Assembly: GCA_003602595.1 (NCBI GenBank)
Contig: QQRX01000020.1
Coordinates: 12,641-51,456, forward strand
Source: Candidatus Poseidoniales archaeon
GTDB lineage: Archaea; Thermoplasmatota; Poseidoniia; Poseidoniales; Thalassarchaeaceae
Direction of reading: 5' to 3'
Length of the DNA: 38,816 nucleotides
Positions 5,149 to 31,000 of the stretch are shown here, piece after piece. A model generated the notes under the pieces. It saw only the letters and a program-made list of their open reading frames with translations. It searched no databases and was not told the DNA's origin. The translations under genes and the position numbers were made by a program. Every line of letters begins with the position of its first letter. Positions within the stretch are counted from its first letter, which is position 1.

Positions 5149-6744
5149 TTACTTCCCCTCAGAAAGTGCCATGAATTCGCATTTGCATGCTGGACAGCGC
5201 GCTCTAACTGGCCTTTTACTCTCTAGTACTCTAAGTTTCTGTTCACAAGATGGACAATTCAACATATCTCCACTAGATGAAGCCGAAGGTATTGTAATTT
5301 CAATATCATCAGATTCCATTTTTTCTTGTAAAACATCATCTTTCTCTAGTGGTTTATCCTCTAATGGTTGTACTTCAAAATTTGACTCACAAGAAGGGCA
5401 TTTGACAAGTCCATCATGGGATGAGGGAACGTTTAGTCTTTGTTCACATAGAGGACAAATAACTTCCCTTTTTTGTTTTTTTTCGGTATTTTTTGAATCT
5501 AATCTTGATTTTCTAGGAGGTCTTAATCTAGAGTTATTAACTGTAGAAGGAGTACGATTTGAAATGGCACTGATTACAATTTTGGCCATTATAACTATTG
5601 CTAAACCCGCAATAGAGCCATATGAAACGGCATAGATATCAAATGGGAGGCCGGAAGATTGGGGAGAATTGGTTGACTCTATTAATACCCAATTACTAGT
5701 ATGATAATCTCCAGAAATAAAGAAAATAGATAAATTTGTCGAATATGAGTATTTCCATTCTGTAATGATTATTTTACCAGAATAGGTAGCATCTGGCAAT
5801 AATGAAGGGAAGTTTTCTTCGTATATTATTGTTTGATCAGACATGATAAGTCGTATTAAACCAGAATTTATCTTACTATTACCGTTGTTGGTAACGGTAT
5901 ATTCAAATGATATATTTTCATTTATTAAAGGTTTTTTGGGATAAAAATTATCGATTGTAATTTCAGCCGAAGTATAAGGAGGATTTACAAATATAATACT
6001 GGTATTTTTAGAATCAGAAGTATTCGGAAGCCACGAAATAGGAACTACCTCTATTAATATATTATCCGTGATAGGGTTGGCTAAATTAAAATGGACAGTT
6101 CTACTACCATAATCCAGGGATAGTTTTAATGATTGGAGTAGATTATTTTTATTGGCATTATCAAAGATATTAATTGAAATATCTCTAGAAATACCTTCAG
6201 AAAGAAAAATAATTGGCATTACTTCTAATCCTTCTTCAGAAGTCCATGAGTAAGAGTTAGACAATATTTGTAATAATTGTTGATTCCGTACTTCAATATT
6301 AAAAGAACCATTTAGGTTACTATCTACACCACCTAATGGACTAAATACGCTCCAATTAAATTCATTATTTCCTGTATATAAAGGAGTAAAAGAAACAAAT
6401 ATTTCCCTACTTGAACCAGAATCGATTTCAATATAATCTCCTAGCCAGGCAGAATTATTCCTTCCAGTTATTTCTAACCTAACACTATCTCTAACTTCTC
6501 CTTCATTATGAATTAAAATTGAAGCTTTGACAGAATCGCCTAAATGAATAGGTTGCCCGATAATTGAGATTTTTTCGCTTCCTGCTGCAGAAAAATTAAC
6601 ATCATTGGAATTAGTCTTTTGAATGTTTTTTTCCATCAAAATTGGAGATTCGACTTGGGAAGTATGAAAATAGGAAAATGAACAAAATAACATTATTAGC
6701 AGTAATGTGAGAGAACTGTAGCCATGGAAACTCCTCGCCATCAT
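5149..6744 (-). CDS. Secreted, membrane-anchored protein with two cytosolic zinc ribbons
   Basis: A 531-residue protein. Residues ~10-29 form a signal peptide or signal anchor. Residues ~35-370 form a beta-rich, Asn/Ser-rich exterior region with repeated Ig-like (CARDB/NEW3-like) units, e.g. the segments around LGDSVKASILIHNEGE and NENISFEYTVTNNGNS, typical of archaeal surface proteins. One membrane segment follows at ~373-392 (SIAGLAIVIMAKIVISAI). After a basic linker, two four-Cys zinc ribbons lie on the cytoplasmic side (CPLC...CPSC near 430-450 and CPSC...CPAC near 498-521), the latter near the C-terminus. This arrangement puts extracellular binding domains and an intracellular zinc module on one chain. 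It is the first gene of the leftward operon; its ATG is only 23 bp from the divergent coiled-coil gene. Function unknown; sensing or envelope attachment are both possible. Confidence 0.8.
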   Translation of the reverse strand: MMARSFHGYSSLTLLLIMLFCSFSYFHTSQVESPILMEKNIQKTNSNDVNFSAAGSEKISIIGQPIHLGDSVKASILIHNEGEVRDSVRLEITGRNNSAWLGDYIEIDSGSSREIFVSFTPLYTGNNEFNWSVFSPLGGVDSNLNGSFNIEVRNQQLLQILSNSYSWTSEEGLEVMPIIFLSEGISRDISINIFDNANKNNLLQSLKLSLDYGSRTVHFNLANPITDNILIEVVPISWLPNTSDSKNTSIIFVNPPYTSAEITIDNFYPKKPLINENISFEYTVTNNGNSKINSGLIRLIMSDQTIIYEENFPSLLPDATYSGKIIITEWKYSYSTNLSIFFISGDYHTSNWVLIESTNSPQSSGLPFDIYAVSYGSIAGLAIVIMAKIVISAISNRTPSTVNNSRLRPPRKSRLDSKNTEKKQKREVICPLCEQRLNVPSSHDGLVKCPSCESNFEVQPLEDKPLEKDDVLQEKMESDDIEITIPSASSSGDMLNCPSCEQKLRVLESKRPVRARCPACKCEFMALSEGK

Positions 6745-8688: not shown

Positions 8689-9540
8689 ATGGATTATAGC
8701 GAGGTTGGCGATATATTCAATCCACTTACTGAAAAAATTAATCTAGAATTGAGCAATAATAAAGAGCAAAGAGATGAATGGAATAATAGAGTTCGTAAAC
8801 ATTTGAACAAGCGAAATGAAATCAATATTCAGGTTAAAGAATTAATTTCAGAAGTACAAAAGCAGAAAGTCGTAAGAGATGCTGCAAATATTAAGGTTAA
8901 AGAATTAAAGGAAATAAGATTTGAAAAGTCTGAAAAATTGAAACTAATCAGAAAAGAAATGAAAGAAAAGATCGGAGATAAAGAGAATCGGAACTCTAAA
9001 AGATCTGGTCCTGATCCACGTAGAATAAAGTCTGAGATGAATAAATTAGAAAATATGTATGAGAGAGGAGCTTTTTCTGGAAAAAAGGAAAAGGAATTCT
9101 TCAATAAAATGAAGAAATTAAGCAGAGATTATAAAGAAGCCAAGAAAGTTGGAGAAGAAGATATTTTTGGAAACCTAAAAAAGAATGAACGAGAGGCAAA
9201 ATATTCTCAAGCAAAGGCGCATGATAATGTTGAAGATGCAGTTAAGAACGCGCAAGAAGCTCATGACTTGATGATGGAGCTTTCTGAAGAAGTAGATAGA
9301 TTAAGAGAGATTGCAAATAATGCACAGATGGAAGTAACAATATCAAAAAGGGAAGCGGATATAATGCACAGTAGATATGTAGTATCCTTGAGATGTATCC
9401 ACTCAATGCAAGATTTACTTAAGGAGATACCTTCAGAAGAGGTTGAAGAAGAAAAGGTAGAGGTTTCTGATTTAATGAGTAGATTGATGTCCGGAGATAC
9501 TTTATCTACAGACGAGTTGATGTCATTGCAAAGAAACTGA
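8689..9540 (+). CDS. Coiled-coil protein, COG1340-like
   Basis: A protein of 283 residues from ATG 8689 (AGGTGG lies ten bases before it; a TTG at 8665 would add eight residues). Charged helices run from about 10 to 245, with a break near 110-135. The C-terminus ends in the short motif LMSGDTLSTDELMSLQ. This matches the 'L..G..L..DEL' closing motif known from archaeal COG1340 proteins and is related to the closing motif of the gene before it. Its first 80 residues show the same spacing of RD/RN pairs and KELI as the protein at 1853-2842. No signal peptide, membrane segment or enzyme motif is present. Function unknown. Confidence 0.8.
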   Translation: MDYSEVGDIFNPLTEKINLELSNNKEQRDEWNNRVRKHLNKRNEINIQVKELISEVQKQKVVRDAANIKVKELKEIRFEKSEKLKLIRKEMKEKIGDKENRNSKRSGPDPRRIKSEMNKLENMYERGAFSGKKEKEFFNKMKKLSRDYKEAKKVGEEDIFGNLKKNEREAKYSQAKAHDNVEDAVKNAQEAHDLMMELSEEVDRLREIANNAQMEVTISKREADIMHSRYVVSLRCIHSMQDLLKEIPSEEVEEEKVEVSDLMSRLMSGDTLSTDELMSLQRN

Positions 9541-9545
9541 TATAA

Positions 9546-10478
9546 CTACATAGAAATCTCTTTACCACTGATGCCATGAATTAATTGCCTTTTTTCAGTA
9601 TTTATAATCCAAGCAGGCATTAATATTTTTTTCCAATAAAGATGACAATTATCGGATTTAAAAATCCAATTTTGTAGAACCATACTTTGGGTAAATGATC
9701 CAGCATTTTTTGGTTTTCCTTGACGTTTTTCATTAATTAATGGACCAATAAGGTCTATTACTTGAGACATATCTTTCCAAAAATTTTTGTTTGGCTCAAT
9801 AATTCTCAATGAAGGAGAAAGAGATAGAACATCCAAATTAGAAAACAAAATAAAATTATTTTCCCATGGATCTTCTATGATTTTCCACTTTTTCTTTTCA
9901 ATAAAACCATCTGGACCAAGTAGTTCACCATCGACCTCCCATAACCTAGATGAAAGTAATATTGGAGTGTATGTGATACCAGATAGTCCTTTATTAGATA
10001 ACCAAGAAGATATTTCTATATTGGGCTTTAATGTTAAAATAGAATCATCAATAATTTTAATTTCATTAACTTCATTAGTTTGGTCATCAATATTATTATC
10101 TTTGACAATTGATAATTGTATTTCTTTATTCAATATTGCTCTTCCAAACCATTGTGATAGTTCATTTGGACCCCAAAAGAAAATCTTATTTTTTCTGTAG
10201 TTATTTACATTTAATTTATCATCAATAAATCGCTCCGAAATAATCAAATGATTCCCAGAAGGAGCATCGACACTCCATCTTTCTATTTCAAAATTATTTA
10301 ATTTAGTAATTCCTTCACCGACATGCCAGATAAAAAGTGATTTAGAAGGAAATTCTTCTAAATCTTGTAAAGAATCTACTTTACCAATGAAATTAAAATC
10401 AATAGAAGAAAAATCATAATTCTGATTATGAAAATTTTCTGCCCGTAATTTTATTAAATTACGAATTTCACTTTCCAT
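9546..10478 (-). CDS. Uncharacterised protein, 310 residues
   Basis: Not recognised. The protein is soluble-looking with no signal peptide and no clear membrane helix. Residues ~40-110 include a Trp/Phe-rich block (FIWHVGEG, FFWGPNELSQWFGRAIL) that reads like an alpha/beta domain. The middle carries ILTLKPNIEISSWLSNKG and a strand-rich section, and the C-terminal part has IDLIGPLINEKRQG and MPAWIINTEK. The pattern 'W.P.ELS.W.GRA.L' recalls small nuclease-like or regulatory domains in archaeal genomes, but I cannot name a family. It is leftward, ending six bases after the convergent coiled-coil gene, and starts about 68 bases from the end of rpl30e, probably with its own AT-rich promoter (AAATTTTAG/TTTTATTC around 10500-10520). 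Confidence 0.65.
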   Translation of the reverse strand: MESEIRNLIKLRAENFHNQNYDFSSIDFNFIGKVDSLQDLEEFPSKSLFIWHVGEGITKLNNFEIERWSVDAPSGNHLIISERFIDDKLNVNNYRKNKIFFWGPNELSQWFGRAILNKEIQLSIVKDNNIDDQTNEVNEIKIIDDSILTLKPNIEISSWLSNKGLSGITYTPILLSSRLWEVDGELLGPDGFIEKKKWKIIEDPWENNFILFSNLDVLSLSPSLRIIEPNKNFWKDMSQVIDLIGPLINEKRQGKPKNAGSFTQSMVLQNWIFKSDNCHLYWKKILMPAWIINTEKRQLIHGISGKEISM

Positions 10479-10545
10479 GGCCTTGCGAGATAATGGAGGA
10501 CTTTGAATAAAACCCTAAAATTTTGTAAAATAGGCTTGTCAAGTG

Positions 10546-10842
10546 TTAAATATTTTGACTCAGGGTTAATAATTCACTTTGTCCGGGATCAGTAACACAA
10601 AGAGTACTAACAGGAAATGGTTTTGCACATGCAGCTCCTAATTGTCGATTAACTAACATTACTTGATGGACTGGTACATCAGGATGTTTTGATTGGAGAT
10701 TAGAAATATATTCTTGAGGGCAGTTAGCAGCTACTAAAACCATTCGCGCATCTCCTCTAGAACAGGCACTCATAGTTTGCCTCTGGCCGAATAGTAAAGT
10801 TCCAGTATTCATTCCTTGTTTTAATTGCCGTGCTAAATCCAT
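10546..10842 (-). CDS. rpl30e: Ribosomal protein L30e
   Basis: A 98-residue member of the L7Ae/L30e/S12e RNA-binding family that binds kink-turn RNA in the large ribosomal subunit. The start (MDLARQLKQGMNTGTLLFGQRQT) and the central ARMVLVAANCP and HQVMLVNRQLGAACAKPFPVS fit L30e, including the Gly-Ala-Cys-Ala-Lys-Pro block. It lies 11 bases after rpoA2 in the same direction, its classical archaeal position. In many archaea nusA, rps12 and rps7 follow; here the operon ends and an unrelated gene begins. Length is normal for the family. Confidence 0.9.
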   Translation of the reverse strand: MDLARQLKQGMNTGTLLFGQRQTMSACSRGDARMVLVAANCPQEYISNLQSKHPDVPVHQVMLVNRQLGAACAKPFPVSTLCVTDPGQSELLTLSQNI

Positions 10843-10853
10843 TTTATCTCTCC

Positions 10854-15510
<4,657 letters not shown>

Positions 15511-20085: not shown

Positions 20086-21438
20086 ATGGATTTTCCATTT
20101 AAACAAAACGAATTCCAGATAAAAAATATTTGTAATTGGAATTTAGAAACCCATAAGACAGTATATCCACCAAGAGAAGATACTTATTTAATGGCAAAAG
20201 CAATATTGAAAATGAAAAAACATCAGGGTTTAGCTCTAGAAATAGGGTGCGGGTCAGGAGCCTTGTCAATGCTTTTAGCAACATTAGGATGGAAGGTTAT
20301 AGCTTATGATGTAAATCCATATGCAGTTTCTAGTGCCCGAGGAAATGTAAAGAAGTATAATCTAGAAAATTCAATAACAATAGAAGAGGGTGGAATTGGT
20401 GAAAATATAGATATTTCAGATGAAATTGATATTATTATTTGGAATTTACCGTATTTGAATCCAATAATTGAACAAGAAAATAAACTAGAATATATTGAAG
20501 ATGCAGCTTATCTAGATTTGGAAAATGGAGGGTGGAATAGAAAATTAAATGATACTTTGGAAATGTATGAAATTTCCGATCATTGTTTAGTTATGTTACT
20601 TTTTAGGACGTTTCCTGAAAGTAATAGCACACCAGAGTTATGGAAAGAAAAGGGATGGTCTGGAAGAAAAATTACTGAAGAGATAATAGGTGATGAAAAA
20701 CTAGAAGTTCATGCATTTTGGAAACCTGGAGGAAATAGTATTCCAATAATCATTGATGAGTGCGAAAGTACTATGGATGAAGTGAAGAAAACTAACAATA
20801 AACATTGGACGAGAATAATGGCAAAAACTCAGACAAAGGGAAGAGGAAGAAGAAATGCCTGTTGGCAATCTATAGATGGCGATATGTTGGCAACATGGAA
20901 AATACCAAAAAAAATTCTTGAAGAAATCTCACCTGGCATATTACAAATTGCTGTTGGTGGATCAATTGCTAGTTTATTAAAAATTGGACTAAAATGGCCA
21001 AATGACTTATTGACTAATGACTTCAGAAAAATGGGAGGAATAATGATTGAATCGGATAGTGAAGATGAGTCCATGCGAATAGGCGTAGGCATCAACAGAA
21101 CAAAAAGAATCAGTGAGGAAATATTCACATCTTCTGGCTGGGACGAGACATTAGGTGAAATAGAAAATATTGATATCTACGAGATGGTAGATGTTGCTCT
21201 TTCTTCAAATTTTGAAGAACATTATCTATTGCCCAACATTAGTTCTCAAGAAATGGAAGATATATCATGGAAGGCACTTTCACAAATATTATCAAGAGGA
21301 GTTGTAATAAAATACAAAAAAAATAACTTTAGAATAATTGGAATGTCTGAGGATGGTAGATTAGATATACTTGGCAATCGTGATAGGATAAAAATAGCCG
21401 ATTTGGAAAAAATAGATTGGGAATTTTATAATCACTAA
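20086..21438 (+). CDS. Fusion: HemK/Mtq2-like methyltransferase + biotin-protein ligase (BirA)
   Basis: A 450-residue, two-domain protein. Residues ~25-215 are a class I SAM methyltransferase of the HemK/PrmC-Mtq2 type: PPREDTYLM near 27, SAM loop LEIGCGSGALS near 48, and NLPY near 119 in place of the canonical NPPY. That family methylates the Gln of the GGQ motif of release factors. Residues ~222-450 are a biotin/lipoyl ligase domain: ECESTMDE, the biotinyl-AMP loop GRGRRNACWQS near 250, KWPNDL near 305, and RKMGGIMIES. The N-terminal DNA-binding domain of E. coli BirA is absent, so a repressor role is unlikely. The biotin substrate is probably the carrier encoded at 37420-37818. A TATA-like element lies ~28 bases before the ATG. 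The stop overlaps the convergent RNase P gene by four bases. Confidence 0.9.
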   Translation: MDFPFKQNEFQIKNICNWNLETHKTVYPPREDTYLMAKAILKMKKHQGLALEIGCGSGALSMLLATLGWKVIAYDVNPYAVSSARGNVKKYNLENSITIEEGGIGENIDISDEIDIIIWNLPYLNPIIEQENKLEYIEDAAYLDLENGGWNRKLNDTLEMYEISDHCLVMLLFRTFPESNSTPELWKEKGWSGRKITEEIIGDEKLEVHAFWKPGGNSIPIIIDECESTMDEVKKTNNKHWTRIMAKTQTKGRGRRNACWQSIDGDMLATWKIPKKILEEISPGILQIAVGGSIASLLKIGLKWPNDLLTNDFRKMGGIMIESDSEDESMRIGVGINRTKRISEEIFTSSGWDETLGEIENIDIYEMVDVALSSNFEEHYLLPNISSQEMEDISWKALSQILSRGVVIKYKKNNFRIIGMSEDGRLDILGNRDRIKIADLEKIDWEFYNH

Positions 21439-24252: not shown

Positions 24253-25071
24253 ATGCAAGGGTTGGATTTGTTCTCTAAGAGACTCATGGTTTTGAGTCTA
24301 ATTTTGATGTTTATTGCTGGCACTAGTCAAGCACTACATTCTGGCGTTGGAGGAGATGTTAACAATGAAGGAGATGTTACAATTGCAGGATGTACATGTC
24401 ATGCTTCAGAACCAGATAATTCAGTAACCATAGTTTTAGATGGAGTTCCTTATCATTATTCAACAAATACAAACTATGAGATGAAAATCCAATTAATTGG
24501 TGGTCCAGACATATTAAGTGGAGGTCAAACAGGAGGTTTTTCCATTAGGGTAAGTAGTGGCACTCTATCGGCAGCAGAAGGATATGAAAACTTAGTTCAA
24601 AATTGGGAAGGCGATGTAAGTACTCTTACTCACACTTCATCTGGATCAGAAACTGAAGATAGAGCCTGGGGCCTGATATGGAGCTCTCCAGAAGCTAGCG
24701 AAGAAGAGCCAGTTACAATCTGGCTTGTTGGAAATTCCGTTAATGGCGACCAAATACCTTCAGCTTTAGATAGATGGAATAGGTTAAGTGTTACTCTAGA
24801 AGAAGGCGAAGATAATGGGAAAACGAGAACAATTTTTTCTGGGAATGGGGATATCAATCCTCCTGCACCAATAAATGAGGAGGTTGATTTGCACCATATG
24901 GGAGCTAAATTAAGAGCACATTGGCTAGGTCTTCTTGGTTTTGGGGCAGTAATTTTAGTGATTATATTTTGTGGATTTTTCTTGAGATACGGATTTTCAA
25001 GACATTATGAAGGCCGTAGTAATCTATTGAGGCTTAGAATTAAACACCTCCGAAGAGGTGATCAACTATGA
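24253..25071 (+). CDS. Secreted CxCH protein, choice-of-anchor V/reeler-like, C-terminally anchored
   Basis: A 272-residue protein at the head of the respiratory locus. Residues ~10-28 form a signal peptide. Just after it comes AGCTCHA (near 47-50), placed where related 'choice-of-anchor V' proteins carry a CxxCH motif; here the spacing is C-x-C-H, so ordinary haem c attachment is not supported. The beta-rich body follows (GGFSIRVSSGTLSA, AWGLIWSSPEA, RWNRLSVTLEEGE), then a Pro-rich linker, one membrane helix at ~222-246 (WLGLLGFGAVILVIIFCGFF), and a basic cytoplasmic tail. The stop overlaps the next gene as ATGA. Ribosome site AGAGG. An extracellular partner of the Rieske/cytochrome b complex is a reasonable inference. 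Confidence 0.75.
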   Translation: MQGLDLFSKRLMVLSLILMFIAGTSQALHSGVGGDVNNEGDVTIAGCTCHASEPDNSVTIVLDGVPYHYSTNTNYEMKIQLIGGPDILSGGQTGGFSIRVSSGTLSAAEGYENLVQNWEGDVSTLTHTSSGSETEDRAWGLIWSSPEASEEEPVTIWLVGNSVNGDQIPSALDRWNRLSVTLEEGEDNGKTRTIFSGNGDINPPAPINEEVDLHHMGAKLRAHWLGLLGFGAVILVIIFCGFFLRYGFSRHYEGRSNLLRLRIKHLRRGDQL

Positions 25072-25517
25072 AAGACGACGTTGTAATGAAACTATTGCGA
25101 GAAGTCAGTAGCGGAAAAATAACCGTTGAAGAGGCTAGAGATGCCTTGGAAGGAGTGGAATTATCGGAAGAGAATTATACAAAGGCGGTTGATCATGGCG
25201 TATTTAATATGCCAAAACCAGGTACTATCGTCAGAGCAAGTATCTCGCCATCAGGAGACTCTTGGTTAATAATTCTGGTAGGATTATGGGGGATACTTTG
25301 GACTTTATTTTGGTCAGGTTCTTTATCATATGGACTCTACAACCATTGGGATCAACAAATTCTTGCATTTAATTTAGGAATGACATTACTTACTTTAATA
25401 ATAATGGGAATTGTATATTTGAAATATGTAATGCCAGACGTTGTAGTTGTCAAGCACAGAAGAAACAAATATATAACTAAGAATGATACTGAAGCATGGA
25501 AAAAATATGAGGCATGA
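25068..25517 (+). CDS. Small two-helix membrane protein of the respiratory locus
   Basis: A 149-residue protein. The first ~45 residues are soluble with a short helical pair (MKLLREVSSGKITVEEARDALEG), similar to small SHOCT-like oligomerisation motifs. Two membrane helices follow at ~66-90 (WLIILVGLWGILWTLFWSG) and ~100-124 (LGMTLLTLIIMGIVYLKYVM), then a basic tail. It overlaps the genes on both sides by four bases (ATGA), so it is translationally coupled to the CxCH protein and the Rieske protein and is likely an accessory subunit of the same complex. No cofactor ligands are apparent. Confidence 0.75.
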   Translation: MKDDVVMKLLREVSSGKITVEEARDALEGVELSEENYTKAVDHGVFNMPKPGTIVRASISPSGDSWLIILVGLWGILWTLFWSGSLSYGLYNHWDQQILAFNLGMTLLTLIIMGIVYLKYVMPDVVVVKHRRNKYITKNDTEAWKKYEA

Positions 25518-26365
25518 CGATGGCAAGAAAGTTTAAACTACGTCCCATTCCTACTCAATCTGATGTAGAAGATGAATCTATTAAAATGATAGATAGAAGA
25601 GAATTTATGAGGTTATCTTTTAATACGGCAGCAGGATTAATCACAATGGCTAGTTTAGGTAGTGTAGGGTTTGCTGCATTGTTGATGGGGCAACCTGAAT
25701 CCGATGGAGGAGATAGTGCCGTAAGATTTTGGGTTCCTTCAGGAGCGGAGGATACTTCATGGTACGGAGATAAGCACTTAGAGCCTATGAATTATAGTTC
25801 TTTTCAAGCAGCAGCAGCAGCCACAAACACAGGCATGATAGGTGCTCAAGGAGTATGGTCAGGACTTCCAGTGAACGTTGTTTATGTCCCTCATGAAGAA
25901 AATAAAGATTTACCTCCACAGTCTGATAAACCTAGATTTCAATACTTAGATGGGTATGATCTTGGAGGAAAATATATTGGTTCTGGAAGAGAAGTGGAAG
26001 ACGATGATACATATAGTTCGTTATCAATACATGACAATATGATAATTATTTTCTCGAGATGCCCTCACTTGTGCTGTATACCAGGATGGCAATTAGTCAC
26101 CAATAATTACACTGGAGATACTTGGGCGGCAGGTGGAACTGATGAAGGTGGAGATAAGCTATTTTGCATATGTCATTCTAGTAGATTCGACCCCACTGCT
26201 ATTGAAAAAAATAGCATGGGTAAAGGTGTTCCATTTGAGTTTATTGGGATTAGAAAAACTGGGGGGCCTGCTCCAAATGGAATGCCTCTTATACCGTTTA
26301 CAGTCAATGGCGATATAGTAGAAGCATTGCCTGATTTCAAGGATTGGTATGCATATTGTGGATGA
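25514..26365 (+). CDS. Rieske 2Fe-2S protein with Tat-like signal anchor
   Basis: A 283-residue subunit of a cytochrome bc-type quinol oxidase complex. Residues ~25-60 hold a twin-Arg-type signal (DRREFMRLSF followed by a hydrophobic helix), consistent with export of a folded Fe-S protein and N-terminal anchoring. The cluster ligands are CPH in CPHLCC near 183 and C-x-C-H in CICHSS near 218, giving two Cys, two His and the two disulfide Cys. The canonical Gly residues of CTHLGC and CPCHGS are replaced by Cys and Ser. Between them lies a longer insertion (about 30 residues, WQLVTNNYTGDTWAAGG). The gene overlaps its upstream neighbour by four bases and sits nine bases before cytochrome b, a typical pair. 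Expected to carry electrons from quinol to an extracellular acceptor. Confidence 0.92.
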   Translation: MTMARKFKLRPIPTQSDVEDESIKMIDRREFMRLSFNTAAGLITMASLGSVGFAALLMGQPESDGGDSAVRFWVPSGAEDTSWYGDKHLEPMNYSSFQAAAAATNTGMIGAQGVWSGLPVNVVYVPHEENKDLPPQSDKPRFQYLDGYDLGGKYIGSGREVEDDDTYSSLSIHDNMIIIFSRCPHLCCIPGWQLVTNNYTGDTWAAGGTDEGGDKLFCICHSSRFDPTAIEKNSMGKGVPFEFIGIRKTGGPAPNGMPLIPFTVNGDIVEALPDFKDWYAYCG

Positions 26366-26374
26366 GGTATTAAG

Positions 26375-27241
26375 ATGATTCAATTTTGGTTTTTGTGGTT
26401 ATTTATAGCACTGGTTGTTGTTATAGTCGCATTTACATTACGAAAAGAAAGGGATGATATGCCTAGAAAGGATATTTTAAGAGCTGTAGAATCTAATGCC
26501 AGTGAAATGGGATTTTCAGAAAAAATATTCTTATGGGCATTTTCATGGTTAGATACTAGATTTAGAATACAAGACTATTGGGGAATGAGTAGGGATGCAT
26601 TCCACAGCGTCCATAGACAGATGCCCCTAACTCATGCTGAAAAATACAAATTAAGAATAATATGGTATTGGTATCCATTATATTGTTTAGGAGGAATTTC
26701 ATTCCTAGCTTTCATAATATTAGTCATAACCGGAAGTATTCTTGGATTATATTATGTCCCTGGAGGAGAGGGAGATCCAACTCCTGCATATAGTAGTATG
26801 GAATTTATTATGACCACTTTACCGTTTGGATACATCATTCGTTCAATACATCACTGGACTACACATTTTATGGTTGCAGCAGTATTCTTACACATGTGTA
26901 GAGTATACTTTACAGGAGCATATCGTAATCCAAGAGAATTAAATTGGTTAATTGGAGTAGCATTGATGTTTTTTGTGATATTCTTTGGTTACTCAGGATA
27001 CCTTCTACCATGGGATAGTTTGGCATTTGGTGCTGCCACGATTGGAATCAATATGGCAACTGCAACACCTTTAATCGGAGATTGGATGGCAAATGCATTG
27101 TTTGCAGGAACTACATTGTCAGGCCAAACTGTTACTAGGATGTACTTTTTGCATGTTTTCATATTGCCTGTATTAGTTACTACATTAATCCTTATTCATC
27201 TATTTATCGTCTGGGTACAAGGAATTGCTGAACCACATTAA
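26375..27241 (+). CDS. Cytochrome b (N-terminal, b6-type)
   Basis: The di-haem membrane subunit of the quinol-oxidising complex, 288 residues. An extra N-terminal helix (residues ~3-22) precedes the four-helix b6 core. Helix B carries H-x13-H (HHWTTHFMVAAVFLH, near 164-178), helix C contains GYSGYLLPW, and helix D carries H-x14-H (LHVFILP...LIH near 265-280). The x14 spacing is that of b6 rather than mitochondrial cytochrome b. All four haem ligands are therefore present. The C-terminal half of cytochrome b (the subunit IV/PetD equivalent) is encoded by the next gene, 12 bases on, but fused to another module. Operon with the Rieske gene; AGGAGA lies before the next start. Confidence 0.95.
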   Translation: MIQFWFLWLFIALVVVIVAFTLRKERDDMPRKDILRAVESNASEMGFSEKIFLWAFSWLDTRFRIQDYWGMSRDAFHSVHRQMPLTHAEKYKLRIIWYWYPLYCLGGISFLAFIILVITGSILGLYYVPGGEGDPTPAYSSMEFIMTTLPFGYIIRSIHHWTTHFMVAAVFLHMCRVYFTGAYRNPRELNWLIGVALMFFVIFFGYSGYLLPWDSLAFGAATIGINMATATPLIGDWMANALFAGTTLSGQTVTRMYFLHVFILPVLVTTLILIHLFIVWVQGIAEPH

Positions 27242-27253
27242 GGAGATTTTGAA

Positions 27254-30037
27254 ATGGGATTATTAGATAGGTTTGGAAGGATTGCAGATACTTACATCAG
27301 TGAAAGAGATGCACTTGTTGAAGCAGAACAAGAAAGGAGAAGGGTTTTTGTTGGTCATTCTTTTTGGCCAACAGAAGTATTGAGAGATACAATAATCTTT
27401 GCAAGCATGATTATGGTAATATGCTTTTACTCATGGATTGTACCTCCTCCATTGCATAGTGCTGCTGATCCTTTTGCACAAGCTGGATTCGTATTCCCTG
27501 ATTGGTATGTTTTATTTTCTTACGGATATCTAAGATGGGGAGAATATTTGCCTCAATACACTATACCTGCAGGACCTATTGGGGATTTCTTTGGTCAGCC
27601 ATTCATTTACTGGAATGCTGCTTGGTGGGGTGCTGCAATAACAGGCATTCCGGTGGCAATTCTAGCATTACCTCCTTTCATTATTGGAAAAAGAGAAAAG
27701 AGAGGAGTTGAGGATCCTTGGTTTGCAAGTGCTGGTGCTGCATATTTGGCACATGTATGGTTCATATCTGTTTTCTCAATTAATATATTCTTAGAATTGT
27801 ATGCGAAAGATTTGACTAACTATTGTTTTATAGATTCGCATCAGAACTTTCTCTGTGGCCGACAAGCACCTTGGACGGCCACGATTTTTAATGCAATACC
27901 TTGGATTTTAACGGCTATTTTCTTATTTGTAGTGCTTTATTTTGTAATCAGAAAGTTTTTACTAAATACTATGGGAGCCCGTGTCAATCCAAAGATTGGT
28001 AAACAAATTACAATTGGGACTTTAATAATAACAGTCCTCATTTCTACCGCGACATGGCCTATTTATGAAGGAGGTTTTTGGAACTATGGTGGGCTTGGTG
28101 CTATGGATAGTATATCTCAATTAGATGAGATGAAAGAACAACCAGAAGATACCTTAGTTCATTATGGTAAAGGAAATGTATGGGAGGCATGGGAAGATGA
28201 GTGTTTGCCTTATTCAGAAACCACTGGACTATCGGTATGGGACACTATTGAAGCAGAAGATTATGAAGATTGGTGTGTAATTACAGCTTCTAATTGGGTT
28301 AATTGGGGAATTTACCAACCAACTAAATATAAAATAATTGATTTTGCGGGAGTTAATGGGCACGCTGATCCTGAAACAAATAGGAATACTGCTGTGTCTG
28401 AATTCACATACAATGGCGACTCTAATAATCTCGAGCAGACAGTTTCCGAATCTAAAACATTCACTGTAGAAGACTTGGGAGTAGATAAAATTCCAACAGA
28501 CATAGGATGTAACTTTAGAACATCTACTTATGGTGTTGGGACACACAGTCAGAGTATGAGTTTAGAAAACTCATTAGGAGAAAACATATGGAACATGGAA
28601 GGTAATTCTTGTACAACTGAAACAATTTATTTGGATTCTGGAGAATCATATATTTTACATTACAGTACAACTTCATCAGGAGTTAATGAAAGTGTTTCTA
28701 TGATTACAGACTATAATGCAGTAGCATATCAACCGTTGATATTGGCTGAAGATGGTACAGCATTAATTAGAGAAGACAGTACTTTAACTATTGAAGAAAT
28801 AGAAGAGATGGCAGTTAAAAATCCTACTTATCATAAAAATCCTAAAAGTCTCGATGCAAAATTGATTTATTCACTATTTATTCCCTGTCTAGGAGTAGGA
28901 GCAATGGTCTTCATGTTAATGCGTAGTATGGCAAGAGGATACGAATGGGAAATGAATAAGTGTTATGGTTGTGACTTATGTGATGATGCATGTCCTGTAA
29001 GATTATTTAATGCAGGCGATAAATTGAATATAATCTACAATACATGGAATAATGAAGATGATGGAGTTCCACTGTATTCATGCTTGACATGTAGTGCATG
29101 TACTAATGCATGCCCTCAATTAGTTGATTATGATTCATATGTTGATATTAGAAGGAATTTGATAGTAGGAGGACCTCCAGCTGCTGAAATACCGCATACC
29201 GTTTTACAAGCAGTATTAGCTGCAGAAGCAGATGAAGATGAAGCATTTATCTCGACGGAAGATTATCCGATTGATTCTAATGTTGGATATTACCCTGGTT
29301 GTGTAGATTATATCGACCAAGAAATGATTTTTAGTCATGTTAATGAAGGGACAATGAATCTTGGAGAAACTACAACTGCTGCTTTTACTCTATTTGAAGA
29401 ACTAGGTCAAGAAGTGACATACTTAGGAAGAGATTTTCTAAAATGTTGCGGCCATGATCAAAAGTGGCAAGGATTAACAGAGGTTTTCGAGAAATTGAAA
29501 CAGTATAACCAAAAGAAAATTGGCGAAAGTGGAATAGACACTTTAGTAACTTCATGTGCAGAATGCTTCAGAACGTTTGCTTTAGACTATGAATTAGATG
29601 ATATGAAGGTCATGCACACTACTGAATATCTGACCGAGAAGGGTTTTGATATGGAATTACAAACTGAAGAAGATATTACAGTAACATATCATGACCCATG
29701 TAGAATAGGTAGGCAGATGAATATCTATGATGAGCCTAGGGACCTAGTCCAATCCGTAGACGGAGTCAGTCTTGTTGAAATGGAGCATAATAAAGAAGAT
29801 GGATTGTGTTGTGGAGTATCAAGTATGATGTCATGTAATGAAAATAGCAGAGGTTTGAGATTACAACGTTTTGATGAAGTCAAAGCCACTGGGGCAGACA
29901 TTATGTTGACATCATGCCCTAAGTGCGTTAGTCACTTCGAATGTTTGAAATTCGAAGGTGATCCTAGGCATGATTTCGAAATATTGGATGTTGTTAGTTT
30001 CTTAGCAAGACAAGTTAATGCCAAAAAAAATAATTAA
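27254..30037 (+). CDS. Fusion: cytochrome b C-terminal half (PetD-like) + HdrD-like ferredoxin/CCG module
   Basis: A 927-residue protein of unusual build. Residues ~33-190 are PetD-like, with membrane helices, PPLHSAADP and the Qo-site motif PDWY (near 82; PEWY in ubiquinone/plastoquinone complexes). Further helices lie at ~215-240 and ~252-275. Residues ~285-530 form a Glu/Thr-rich beta domain predicted outside the membrane, then a helix at ~538-558. The cytosolic end has two 4Fe-4S motifs (CYGCDLCDDACP near 570, CLTCSACTNACP near 610) and two complete CCG domains: C...CCGHD...SCAEC near 680-770 and DPC...CCGVS...SCPKC near 814-890. CCG domains in HdrB/HdrD hold non-cubane or 4Fe-4S catalytic clusters. 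The likely job is electron exchange between a cytosolic thiol/disulfide or hydroxyacid reaction and the quinone pool; the substrate cannot be read from sequence. Confidence 0.93.
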   Translation: MGLLDRFGRIADTYISERDALVEAEQERRRVFVGHSFWPTEVLRDTIIFASMIMVICFYSWIVPPPLHSAADPFAQAGFVFPDWYVLFSYGYLRWGEYLPQYTIPAGPIGDFFGQPFIYWNAAWWGAAITGIPVAILALPPFIIGKREKRGVEDPWFASAGAAYLAHVWFISVFSINIFLELYAKDLTNYCFIDSHQNFLCGRQAPWTATIFNAIPWILTAIFLFVVLYFVIRKFLLNTMGARVNPKIGKQITIGTLIITVLISTATWPIYEGGFWNYGGLGAMDSISQLDEMKEQPEDTLVHYGKGNVWEAWEDECLPYSETTGLSVWDTIEAEDYEDWCVITASNWVNWGIYQPTKYKIIDFAGVNGHADPETNRNTAVSEFTYNGDSNNLEQTVSESKTFTVEDLGVDKIPTDIGCNFRTSTYGVGTHSQSMSLENSLGENIWNMEGNSCTTETIYLDSGESYILHYSTTSSGVNESVSMITDYNAVAYQPLILAEDGTALIREDSTLTIEEIEEMAVKNPTYHKNPKSLDAKLIYSLFIPCLGVGAMVFMLMRSMARGYEWEMNKCYGCDLCDDACPVRLFNAGDKLNIIYNTWNNEDDGVPLYSCLTCSACTNACPQLVDYDSYVDIRRNLIVGGPPAAEIPHTVLQAVLAAEADEDEAFISTEDYPIDSNVGYYPGCVDYIDQEMIFSHVNEGTMNLGETTTAAFTLFEELGQEVTYLGRDFLKCCGHDQKWQGLTEVFEKLKQYNQKKIGESGIDTLVTSCAECFRTFALDYELDDMKVMHTTEYLTEKGFDMELQTEEDITVTYHDPCRIGRQMNIYDEPRDLVQSVDGVSLVEMEHNKEDGLCCGVSSMMSCNENSRGLRLQRFDEVKATGADIMLTSCPKCVSHFECLKFEGDPRHDFEILDVVSFLARQVNAKKNN

Positions 30038-30297: not shown

Positions 30298-30378
30298 AGC
30301 TATCCGATTGTTACAAGAGCAATGAAACTGACGATTATAAGCAGTAGCCTTCTCAACCAGTGCAAAGAGGAACGTGAA

Positions 30379-30711
30379 GTGACTGAAAAAAGCGACCTTG
30401 CTGCAAGGAGAAATACTGAGCAAAAAAGGATAAGGATGATGTTGAATGCAATGCGTTCAGAAGAAAGGGCAAAAATAAAAGGAGGTTTGGATACAGTCGC
30501 ATGGGTAAAAGAAGAATTATGCATTGGATGTGATCAGTGCACAATTGTTTGTGATGATGATGCTATTGAAGTATACAAAACCCCAATGAAAAGTCCAATG
30601 ATGGATGTTGATAACAATAAAAAAGCCAGAATATTAAGAGACCCATGTACAGGATGTAAGATATGTGTATTGGCGTGCCCAACAGACGCGATAATTATGA
30701 TAGATAGGTGA
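30379..30711 (+). CDS. 2[4Fe-4S] ferredoxin-like protein
   Basis: A protein of about 110 residues with two 4Fe-4S motifs: CIGCDQCTIVCDD and CTGCKICVLACPTD, separated by ~30 residues. The first motif lacks the usual Pro after its fourth Cys. The N-terminal ~45 residues are charged and helical (RNTEQKRIRMMLNAMRSEER). I favour the GTG at 30379, which has GAGGAACGTG just before it; an ATG at 30322 would add 19 residues that look non-coding (KLTIISSSLLNQC) and lie in the divergent promoter region. It follows the cytochrome b/HdrD-like fusion and precedes a small membrane protein, so it may shuttle electrons to or from that complex. Confidence 0.78.
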   Translation: MTEKSDLAARRNTEQKRIRMMLNAMRSEERAKIKGGLDTVAWVKEELCIGCDQCTIVCDDDAIEVYKTPMKSPMMDVDNNKKARILRDPCTGCKICVLACPTDAIIMIDR

Positions 30712-30715
30712 TATA

Positions 30716-31000
30716 ATGGAAAAAAATAATCCACTAAGATTTGGAGCAGAGTTTGGACCTGAAGGAGTAGAAAATCCCACTGGAGTATCTTTATCTACAT
30801 TCAAGACATTAGTATGGGTTTCTAATGTAGGGGGTTTGATATTATTTGCAATAGGTTTAGAAATAATGGTGGTACAACAATCATTCGGAATAGGTCTGGC
30901 ATTATTAATAGCAGGAGTTATAATAGCATTATTTCCATCAAACTATGAAATAAGAGGGATGGAAGAAGATAATGACCTCAAAAATTATGGAGAAGAATGA
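30716..31000 (+). CDS. Small two-helix membrane protein
   Basis: A 94-residue protein, with ATG five bases after the ferredoxin stop, so co-transcribed. The first ~28 residues are hydrophilic (FGAEFGPEGVENPTG). Two hydrophobic helices lie at about 31-52 (LVWVSNVGGLILFAIGL) and 57-78 (IGLALLIAGVIIALF), and an acidic tail closes the protein. No family recognised. Position suggests a membrane anchor or accessory subunit for the neighbouring ferredoxin or the respiratory complex. Confidence 0.65.
   Translation: MEKNNPLRFGAEFGPEGVENPTGVSLSTFKTLVWVSNVGGLILFAIGLEIMVVQQSFGIGLALLIAGVIIALFPSNYEIRGMEEDNDLKNYGEE

Follow-up and report, generated by a model that had tools for sequence, protein, structure and literature searches.

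The DNA analyzed (the window) is a 38,816-nucleotide stretch of one contig from Candidatus Poseidoniales archaeon, a member of Marine Group II. Its forward strand contains a seven-gene cluster that encodes, in order, a choice-of-anchor V protein, a DUF7318-like protein, a Rieske protein, the N-terminal half of a cytochrome b, a fused protein, a ferredoxin and a small membrane protein (Table 1). The fifth gene is a single ATG-started open reading frame without internal stops. Hydropathy analysis and Pfam searches confirmed the layout proposed by the sequence-only reading, in which one 927-residue chain begins with PetD-like helices containing a PDWY motif, continues through an outside domain and a final membrane helix, and ends with a pair of 4Fe-4S motifs and a pair of complete CCG domains. 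The cytosolic HdrC-HdrB portion is referred to below as the arm.

Table 1. Genes of the cluster and parts of the fused protein, in window coordinates
Feature	Coordinates	Strand	Length or evidence
Secreted membrane-anchored protein, choice-of-anchor V domain (gene 1)	24253..25071	+	NCBIfam NF041895, 7e-22
Small subunit with one helix, similar to the DUF7318 of archaeal bc clusters	25068..25517	+	PF24002 weak, 23.5 bits, under the 27-bit cut-off
Rieske iron-sulfur protein, ligand boxes CPHLCC and CICH	25514..26365	+	TIGR01416, 3.5e-7
N-terminal half of a b6-type cytochrome b; cysteine in YCLGG	26375..27241	+	Cytochrome_B, 8e-42
Fused protein in full (PetD, outside domain, HdrC, HdrB)	27254..30037	+	927 aa
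PetD-like part, residues 1-240, PDWY at 82-85	27254..27973	+	PDWY in 40/40 copies
Outside (extracytoplasmic) insertion, residues 271-536, fastest-evolving part	28064..28861	+	Hydropathy, alignment
Last membrane helix, residues 537-555, leading inward	28862..28918	+	Hydropathy
HdrC-like part, two 4Fe-4S motifs (C570, 573, 576, 580 and C610, 613, 616, 620)	28928..29173	+	Pfam Fer4_9/Fer4_8; cysteines in 40/40
First CCG domain (C683; C731, C732; C768, C771)	29282..29653	+	Pfam, alignment; fold match to EtfD, LutA, HdrB
Second CCG domain (C816; C852, C853; C888, C891), plus invariant C861 and C897	29654..30034	+	Pfam, alignment
2[4Fe-4S] ferredoxin, RnfB/HdrA-ferredoxin-like	30379..30711	+	TIGR01944 rnfB, 9e-12
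Small membrane protein, also a member of unfused archaeal bc loci	30716..31000	+	Homologues downstream in MGIII, L071, L073, L074, L076

Layout of the fused protein and its gene cluster

Hydropathy analysis identified six membrane segments in the fused protein (residues 46-64, 126-144, 162-180, 214-232, 252-270 and 537-555) and placed the PDWY motif on the side opposite to the positively charged loops. The 266 residues between the fifth and sixth segments were predicted to lie outside, in agreement with the external insertion noted earlier between the membrane and Fe-S parts, and the remainder after the last helix, including the C-terminus, was predicted to be cytosolic, as expected for an Fe-S module facing the cytosol. 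Pfam searches detected a 4Fe-4S dicluster domain at residues 566-622, both motifs of which read CxxCxxCxxxCP, and two CCG domains (8e-23). The PetD-like part yielded no match to the Pfam family Cytochrom_B_C, and b6f subunit IV chains aligned weakly to its residues 29-94 (E 0.15-0.3); PetD homologues in related clusters matched Cytochrom_B_C or TIGR01156. The outside domain had no match in Pfam or NCBIfam, and its predicted model had a confidence below 50. The AlphaFold model of the whole chain was poor outside the CCG part (mean pLDDT 54.5) and unfit for geometry, and the model predicted for HdrC-HdrB was good in the CCG part only.

A choice-of-anchor V homologue is the first gene of the cluster in relatives, in most archaeal loci read, and the position of the DUF7318-like gene is conserved across fused and unfused clusters. 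The Rieske ligand boxes (C[PT]HLCC and CICH) were found in 39/39 copies of the order. The longest frame of the ferredoxin gene begins at 30322, and the conserved length of its product is about 110 aa; the gene lay within the fetched stretch in 37/40 copies of the order, and in the one-contig genome G002 it is located some 15 kb from the fused gene. Cytochrome b of this type occurs once per Marine Group II genome, aside from genes split across contigs. A search of viral contigs gave no match.

The choice-of-anchor V protein, which contains the motif GCTCH, may be a p-side partner of the complex. A heme c in this protein was considered and excluded, since GCTCH is of the form CxCH and CxxCH occurs in no copy. 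In archaeal complexes, blue copper proteins can take the place of cytochrome c1/f (PMC9038741). Elsewhere in the window, a 450-aa frame (20086-21438, forward strand) joins an N-terminal PrmA/MTS-type methyltransferase to a C-terminal biotin/lipoate-protein ligase, apparently an unusual fusion.

Conservation and fusion state across lineages

The fused protein was matched end to end, in one open frame without internal stops, in 101 of the 125 genomes of the order, bearing out the expectation of the same fused order in related genomes and of an unbroken frame. Several of the remaining genomes contained two segments of one 921-950 aa frame or copies cut at contig ends, and three drafts (G028, G074 and G142) had a broken frame, at a different position in each. 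The end-to-end frames, together with the relatives that carry equivalent loci, rule out an assembly error as the source of the fusion. All 18 Fe-S ligands (8 ferredoxin-type and 10 CCG cysteines) were invariant in the 40 aligned copies, in which mean column identity was highest in the HdrC part (0.97), lowest in the outside domain (0.60) and 0.71-0.97 elsewhere. For the two nearest relatives, in which the fused gene has an equal length, dN was 0.04 in the PetD part and 0.008 in the last helix and HdrC, with dS near saturation. Strong purifying selection thus acts on PetD and HdrC alike.

In the sister order, Marine Group III (MGIII), PetD and HdrC form one gene of about 340-430 aa without the outside domain, which is followed by a separate HdrB gene and then by a gene for a larger 4Fe-4S protein. 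The membrane and Fe-S parts are not always encoded by two genes, being fused in the window's order and, as PetD-HdrC, still fused in its sister. Outside the class, nzgw66 (L067/L085) and CSMAG_327 (L069/L083) encode PetD-HdrC-HdrB in 789 aa and 606 aa, respectively, with the outside domain absent from both, and CSMAG_355 (L101) has PetD-HdrC, then HdrB, then ferredoxin. Among the loci read, the outside insertion was confined to the window's order, and the module order cytochrome b, PetD-HdrC, HdrB and 4Fe-4S protein was common to MGIII and L101. An MGIII-type cluster was also found in L095, assigned to the Chloroflexi bacterium EAC10, which is probably a mislabelled or mixed bin.

Directly after PetD-HdrC-HdrB, L069 contains a gene for an HdrA-like flavoprotein (5435-6379) that is cut by the contig end, placing a bc complex together with an HdrABC-like set. 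The gene product scored 63 bits to solved HdrA chains and matched NCBIfam HdrA2, and such a neighbour was seen in this locus only. Different lineages attach different outside domains to one complex: the cytochrome b N-terminal half carries long N-terminal Big_5 (Ig-like) domains in L067 (10586-12475) and L069 (788-3613), and a laminin-G domain is located inside PetD in L068.

Ordinary bc clusters of the same phylum and of one haloarchaeon share most other genes with the fused clusters, whereas their PetD measures about 210-330 aa (579 aa in L068), indicating that the bc gene set is old and the fusion state variable. In the stretches of up to about 20 kb fetched around unfused bc loci, a CCG gene was found only in L074, in which a 1182-aa protein with CCG and 4Fe-4S domains (9128-12853) is encoded 4 kb downstream of the bc cluster. 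The C-terminal tail of unfused archaeal PetD proteins reads, for example, GYEFNLNRTYYKVR, and fused proteins have GYEWEMNKCYGCDLC at the equivalent position. Since the motif YE..LN.xY is common to both, the Fe-S domain must have been gained, or lost, exactly at the PetD tail. L174 has an unfused tail, yet it groups with the fused lineages on a long branch of the tree. The conserved tail YE..LN.xYY.vR of unfused PetD C-termini, for example in L076 (9617-10321), aligns with the start of HdrC and is possibly a remnant or a docking motif.

Cofactor sites and candidate routes for electrons

The best PDB matches of the cytochrome b N-terminal half were b6 chains (145 bits, versus 107 for bc1). Its YCLGG motif aligned with YCLGG of b6, and the heme histidines were conserved in the alignment. 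The cysteine of this motif is equivalent to Cys35 of b6, to which heme cn is bound in b6f. This cysteine occurs in every Marine Group II copy whose region was readable, in L067, L069 and L101, and in part of MGIII. One MGIII subclade has Ser at the position, and most unfused archaeal complexes have Ser, Thr or Ala there; the unfused L174 and L175 also carry the cysteine. Co-occurrence of the arm and the cn cysteine was dropped as independent statistical evidence. The arm linkage changes twice on the tree, the correlation comes from mostly one clade, and L174 and L175 are unlinked exceptions; the cysteine therefore fits the proposed link but does not prove it statistically.

Both CCG domains contain five cysteines in the window's order, in L067 and in L069, and not in MGIII or L101. 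With CCG and CAEC, the window protein has every cysteine of the HdrB set, and Glu stands where EtfD has its histidine. The outer cluster has been altered repeatedly, since a cysteine of the first (outer) CCG domain is lost in MGIII, where one part has CSG and the other CAEG, and in L101 (CAEG); the second domain was intact wherever complete. This first-domain (CCG1) cysteine is lost in L090 and in the MGIII subclade of L032, and the cn cysteine in the L032 group only, a distribution that possibly reflects a stepwise decay of the electron path across L090 and the L032 group. The joint loss of the two cysteines was discarded as a signal, because it concerns one clade and L090 lacks the CCG1 cysteine only. 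Two further cysteines, C861 (29834-29836) and C897 (29942-29944), were invariant in every complete arm copy read and absent from the aligned EtfD and HdrB; they are candidates for a redox disulfide or an extra ligand.

By both sequence and fold, the nearest solved structure to the CCG part was EtfD (9ojn), followed by LutA and HdrB by fold and by HdrB by sequence. In EtfD, Thr replaces the second Cys of the first CCG, resulting in a linear cluster, and the His in CPHC renders the second cluster non-catalytic; the cofactors form the string heme - D4 - D3 - D2 - D1, in which the two CCG domains are a plain wire from a soluble carrier to the membrane heme and quinone (PMC13083937). The genome also encodes L002, a separate protein of the EtfD kind that carries the EtfD-like CSG and CPHC.

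Taken together, the sequences indicate that the sole Rieske/cytochrome b (complex III type) enzyme of these archaea has a PetD-like subunit that carries a cytosolic HdrC-HdrB arm. The sequence-only reading had claimed that this bc-type complex exchanges electrons directly with a cytosolic substrate. The hard-wired Fe-S module in that claim is well supported by the conserved fusion, the topology, the gene order and the presence of only one such cytochrome b. Exchange with a cytosolic partner is a reasonable inference, already proposed for genes near complex III of Angelarchaeales (PMC9038741). A small substrate (such as a disulfide or hydroxyacid) as that partner is not supported, given the plain-wire role of the EtfD domains (PMC13083937), the loss of the CCG1 cysteine in MGIII and L101, and the companion gene, which usually encodes a 4Fe-4S protein.

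We favor the reading that a permanent electron wire is attached to complex III on the cytosolic side and would lead from ferredoxin to quinone at the Qn site, because modules of the EtfD kind act as a wire, a 4Fe-4S protein is encoded alongside, ferredoxin is made in these cells and a separate EtfD-like protein is available for ETF; from this we infer both the electron direction and the ferredoxin partner, and we regard the proposal as evenly poised between right and wrong. Reduced ferredoxin would be made by 2-oxoacid:ferredoxin oxidoreductase and would donate electrons to the co-encoded 4Fe-4S protein, from which they could travel along the CCG clusters and then those of HdrC to heme cn/bH, next to the Qn site, and there reduce quinone. 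The quinol would then be oxidized at the Qo site, with electrons going toward oxygen, and the enzyme would double as complex III and ferredoxin:quinone reductase. Genes for 2-oxoacid:ferredoxin oxidoreductase (KorA-type) are present in these genomes and NuoF (NADH-binding) was missing in 5/6 genomes searched, making oxidation of ferredoxin by the membrane chain plausible. For cyclic flow in b6f, it has been proposed that electrons move from ferredoxin to plastoquinone by way of heme cn (PMC9342900).

A ferredoxin-fed arm is further supported by the intact fusion in 101 genomes with its invariant cysteines, by the recurrence of the module order in relatives, by a neighbour that is a ferredoxin or, in L069, an HdrA-like protein, the one that feeds HdrC in HdrABC, and by the cn cysteine, kept in linked lineages save one MGIII subclade. 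It is weakened by the full HdrB set of Marine Group II, L067 and L069, which a plain wire does not need, by the distant ferredoxin gene of G002 and the Ser at the cn position in one MGIII subclade, and by the largely single-clade origin of the cn correlation with its two unlinked exceptions. More tentatively, the enzyme could be a covalently built ferredoxin:quinone reductase within a b6-type complex III, a counterpart of the cyclic route of b6f, with quinol-driven disulfide reduction also possible where the HdrB set is full. As judged from the cysteine sets, only certain lineages could carry out disulfide chemistry.

The main rival to ferredoxin input, which we consider unlikely, is quinol-driven disulfide reduction as an output: quinol would bifurcate at Qo, and the low-potential electron would move via HdrC to noncubane clusters in HdrB; these would reduce a disulfide in the cytosol, of either a small thiol or a protein, in the manner of HdrDE. 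The five cysteines in both CCG domains of the window protein, like those of HdrB, the Glu in CAEC at the place of the EtfD histidine, and the extra invariant C861 and C897 are consistent with such chemistry. However, the degenerate first CCG domain of MGIII and L101 argues against disulfide cleavage at two clusters as the shared function, and sensitivity to oxygen is expected of HdrB clusters (PMC13083937), whereas Marine Group II are predicted aerobes (PMC6336850).

Less probable again is an ETF- or dehydrogenase-linked entry resembling EtfD, LldE or GlpC, in which flavoprotein electrons would reach quinone via cytochrome b. Although EtfD is the closest solved structure, the genomes carry ETF genes and an HdrA-like flavoprotein adjoins the fusion in L069, the cluster itself contains no ETF or dehydrogenase gene, its usual partner is a 4Fe-4S protein, and the separate EtfD-like L002 makes ETF a less likely partner of the arm. 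It is very improbable that the arm is mainly structural or regulatory (a redox sensor or docking platform) with no catalytic electron flow, since none of its 18 ligand cysteines varies and HdrC, the best conserved segment of the protein, far exceeds the accessory outside domain in identity, even if the laminin-G and Big_5 additions suggest that accessory domains accumulate on the complex.

Marine Group II has been reported from marine samples worldwide, and its genomes were described as having cytochrome b and Rieske proteins but no canonical bc1, and an RnfB unaccompanied by the other Rnf subunits (Tully 2019, PMC6336850). The fusion may explain the "missing" bc1, in that complex III is present with its PetD fused to an HdrCB arm, and the orphan RnfB is probably the RnfB-like ferredoxin next to complex III. 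If there is indeed electron transfer between ferredoxin and the Qn site, the disputed ferredoxin:plastoquinone route of b6f could be tested where the connection is covalent, and a ferredoxin:quinone reductase would be the only complex III of globally abundant, uncultured marine archaea.

Comparison with known systems

No description of a PetD-HdrCB fusion was found in the literature searched, which mostly lacked subscription journals; on that basis the fusion is new, with a kindred arrangement recently hinted at for Angelarchaeales (PMC9038741). The complex resembles cytochrome b6f in its split cytochrome b (b6 and subunit IV), its PDWY/PEWY motif, its Rieske protein and its heme cn cysteine. 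In contrast to b6f, for which only docking of ferredoxin/FNR has been proposed, the PetD chain here is extended first by an outside domain and then by the cytosolic arm of HdrC and HdrB.

HdrDE shares the fused HdrC and HdrB, a membrane cytochrome b partner and, with the window protein, the full noncubane cysteine set. The partner here, however, is a bc-type cytochrome b with a Qo motif and a Rieske protein and not of the HdrE type, and the first CCG domain is degenerate in sister lineages of the fusion. EtfD, the mycobacterial ETF:menaquinone oxidoreductase (PDB 9ojn), likewise combines a membrane part, two 4Fe-4S motifs and two CCG domains in one chain. Its anchor is a NarI/HdrE-type five-helix heme b domain, whereas that of the fusion is PetD-like with PDWY; EtfD is also distinguished from the fusion by its Thr (CTG) and His (CPHC) substitutions, and it has no Rieske complex. 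HdrABC is related through HdrC and HdrB, and an HdrA-like gene takes the place of the ferredoxin in L069; unlike the present complex, HdrABC is soluble and flavin-bifurcating, uses CoM-S-S-CoB and has no quinone chemistry.

A close parallel is found in Ca. Angelarchaeales, in which hdrD-like and rnfB-like genes lie near complex III and ferredoxin entry into respiration has been proposed (Diamond et al., PMC9038741). This group belongs to the same phylum, its system has the same three ingredients (a cytochrome b complex III, an Hdr-like CCG protein and an RnfB-like ferredoxin) and the same role has been proposed for it. The accessible text makes no mention of a fusion, of cluster-ligand or heme cn analysis, or of Marine Group II or III. 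It describes two genes near complex III, whereas in the window the Hdr part is fused to PetD, an arrangement that is fixed across the order.
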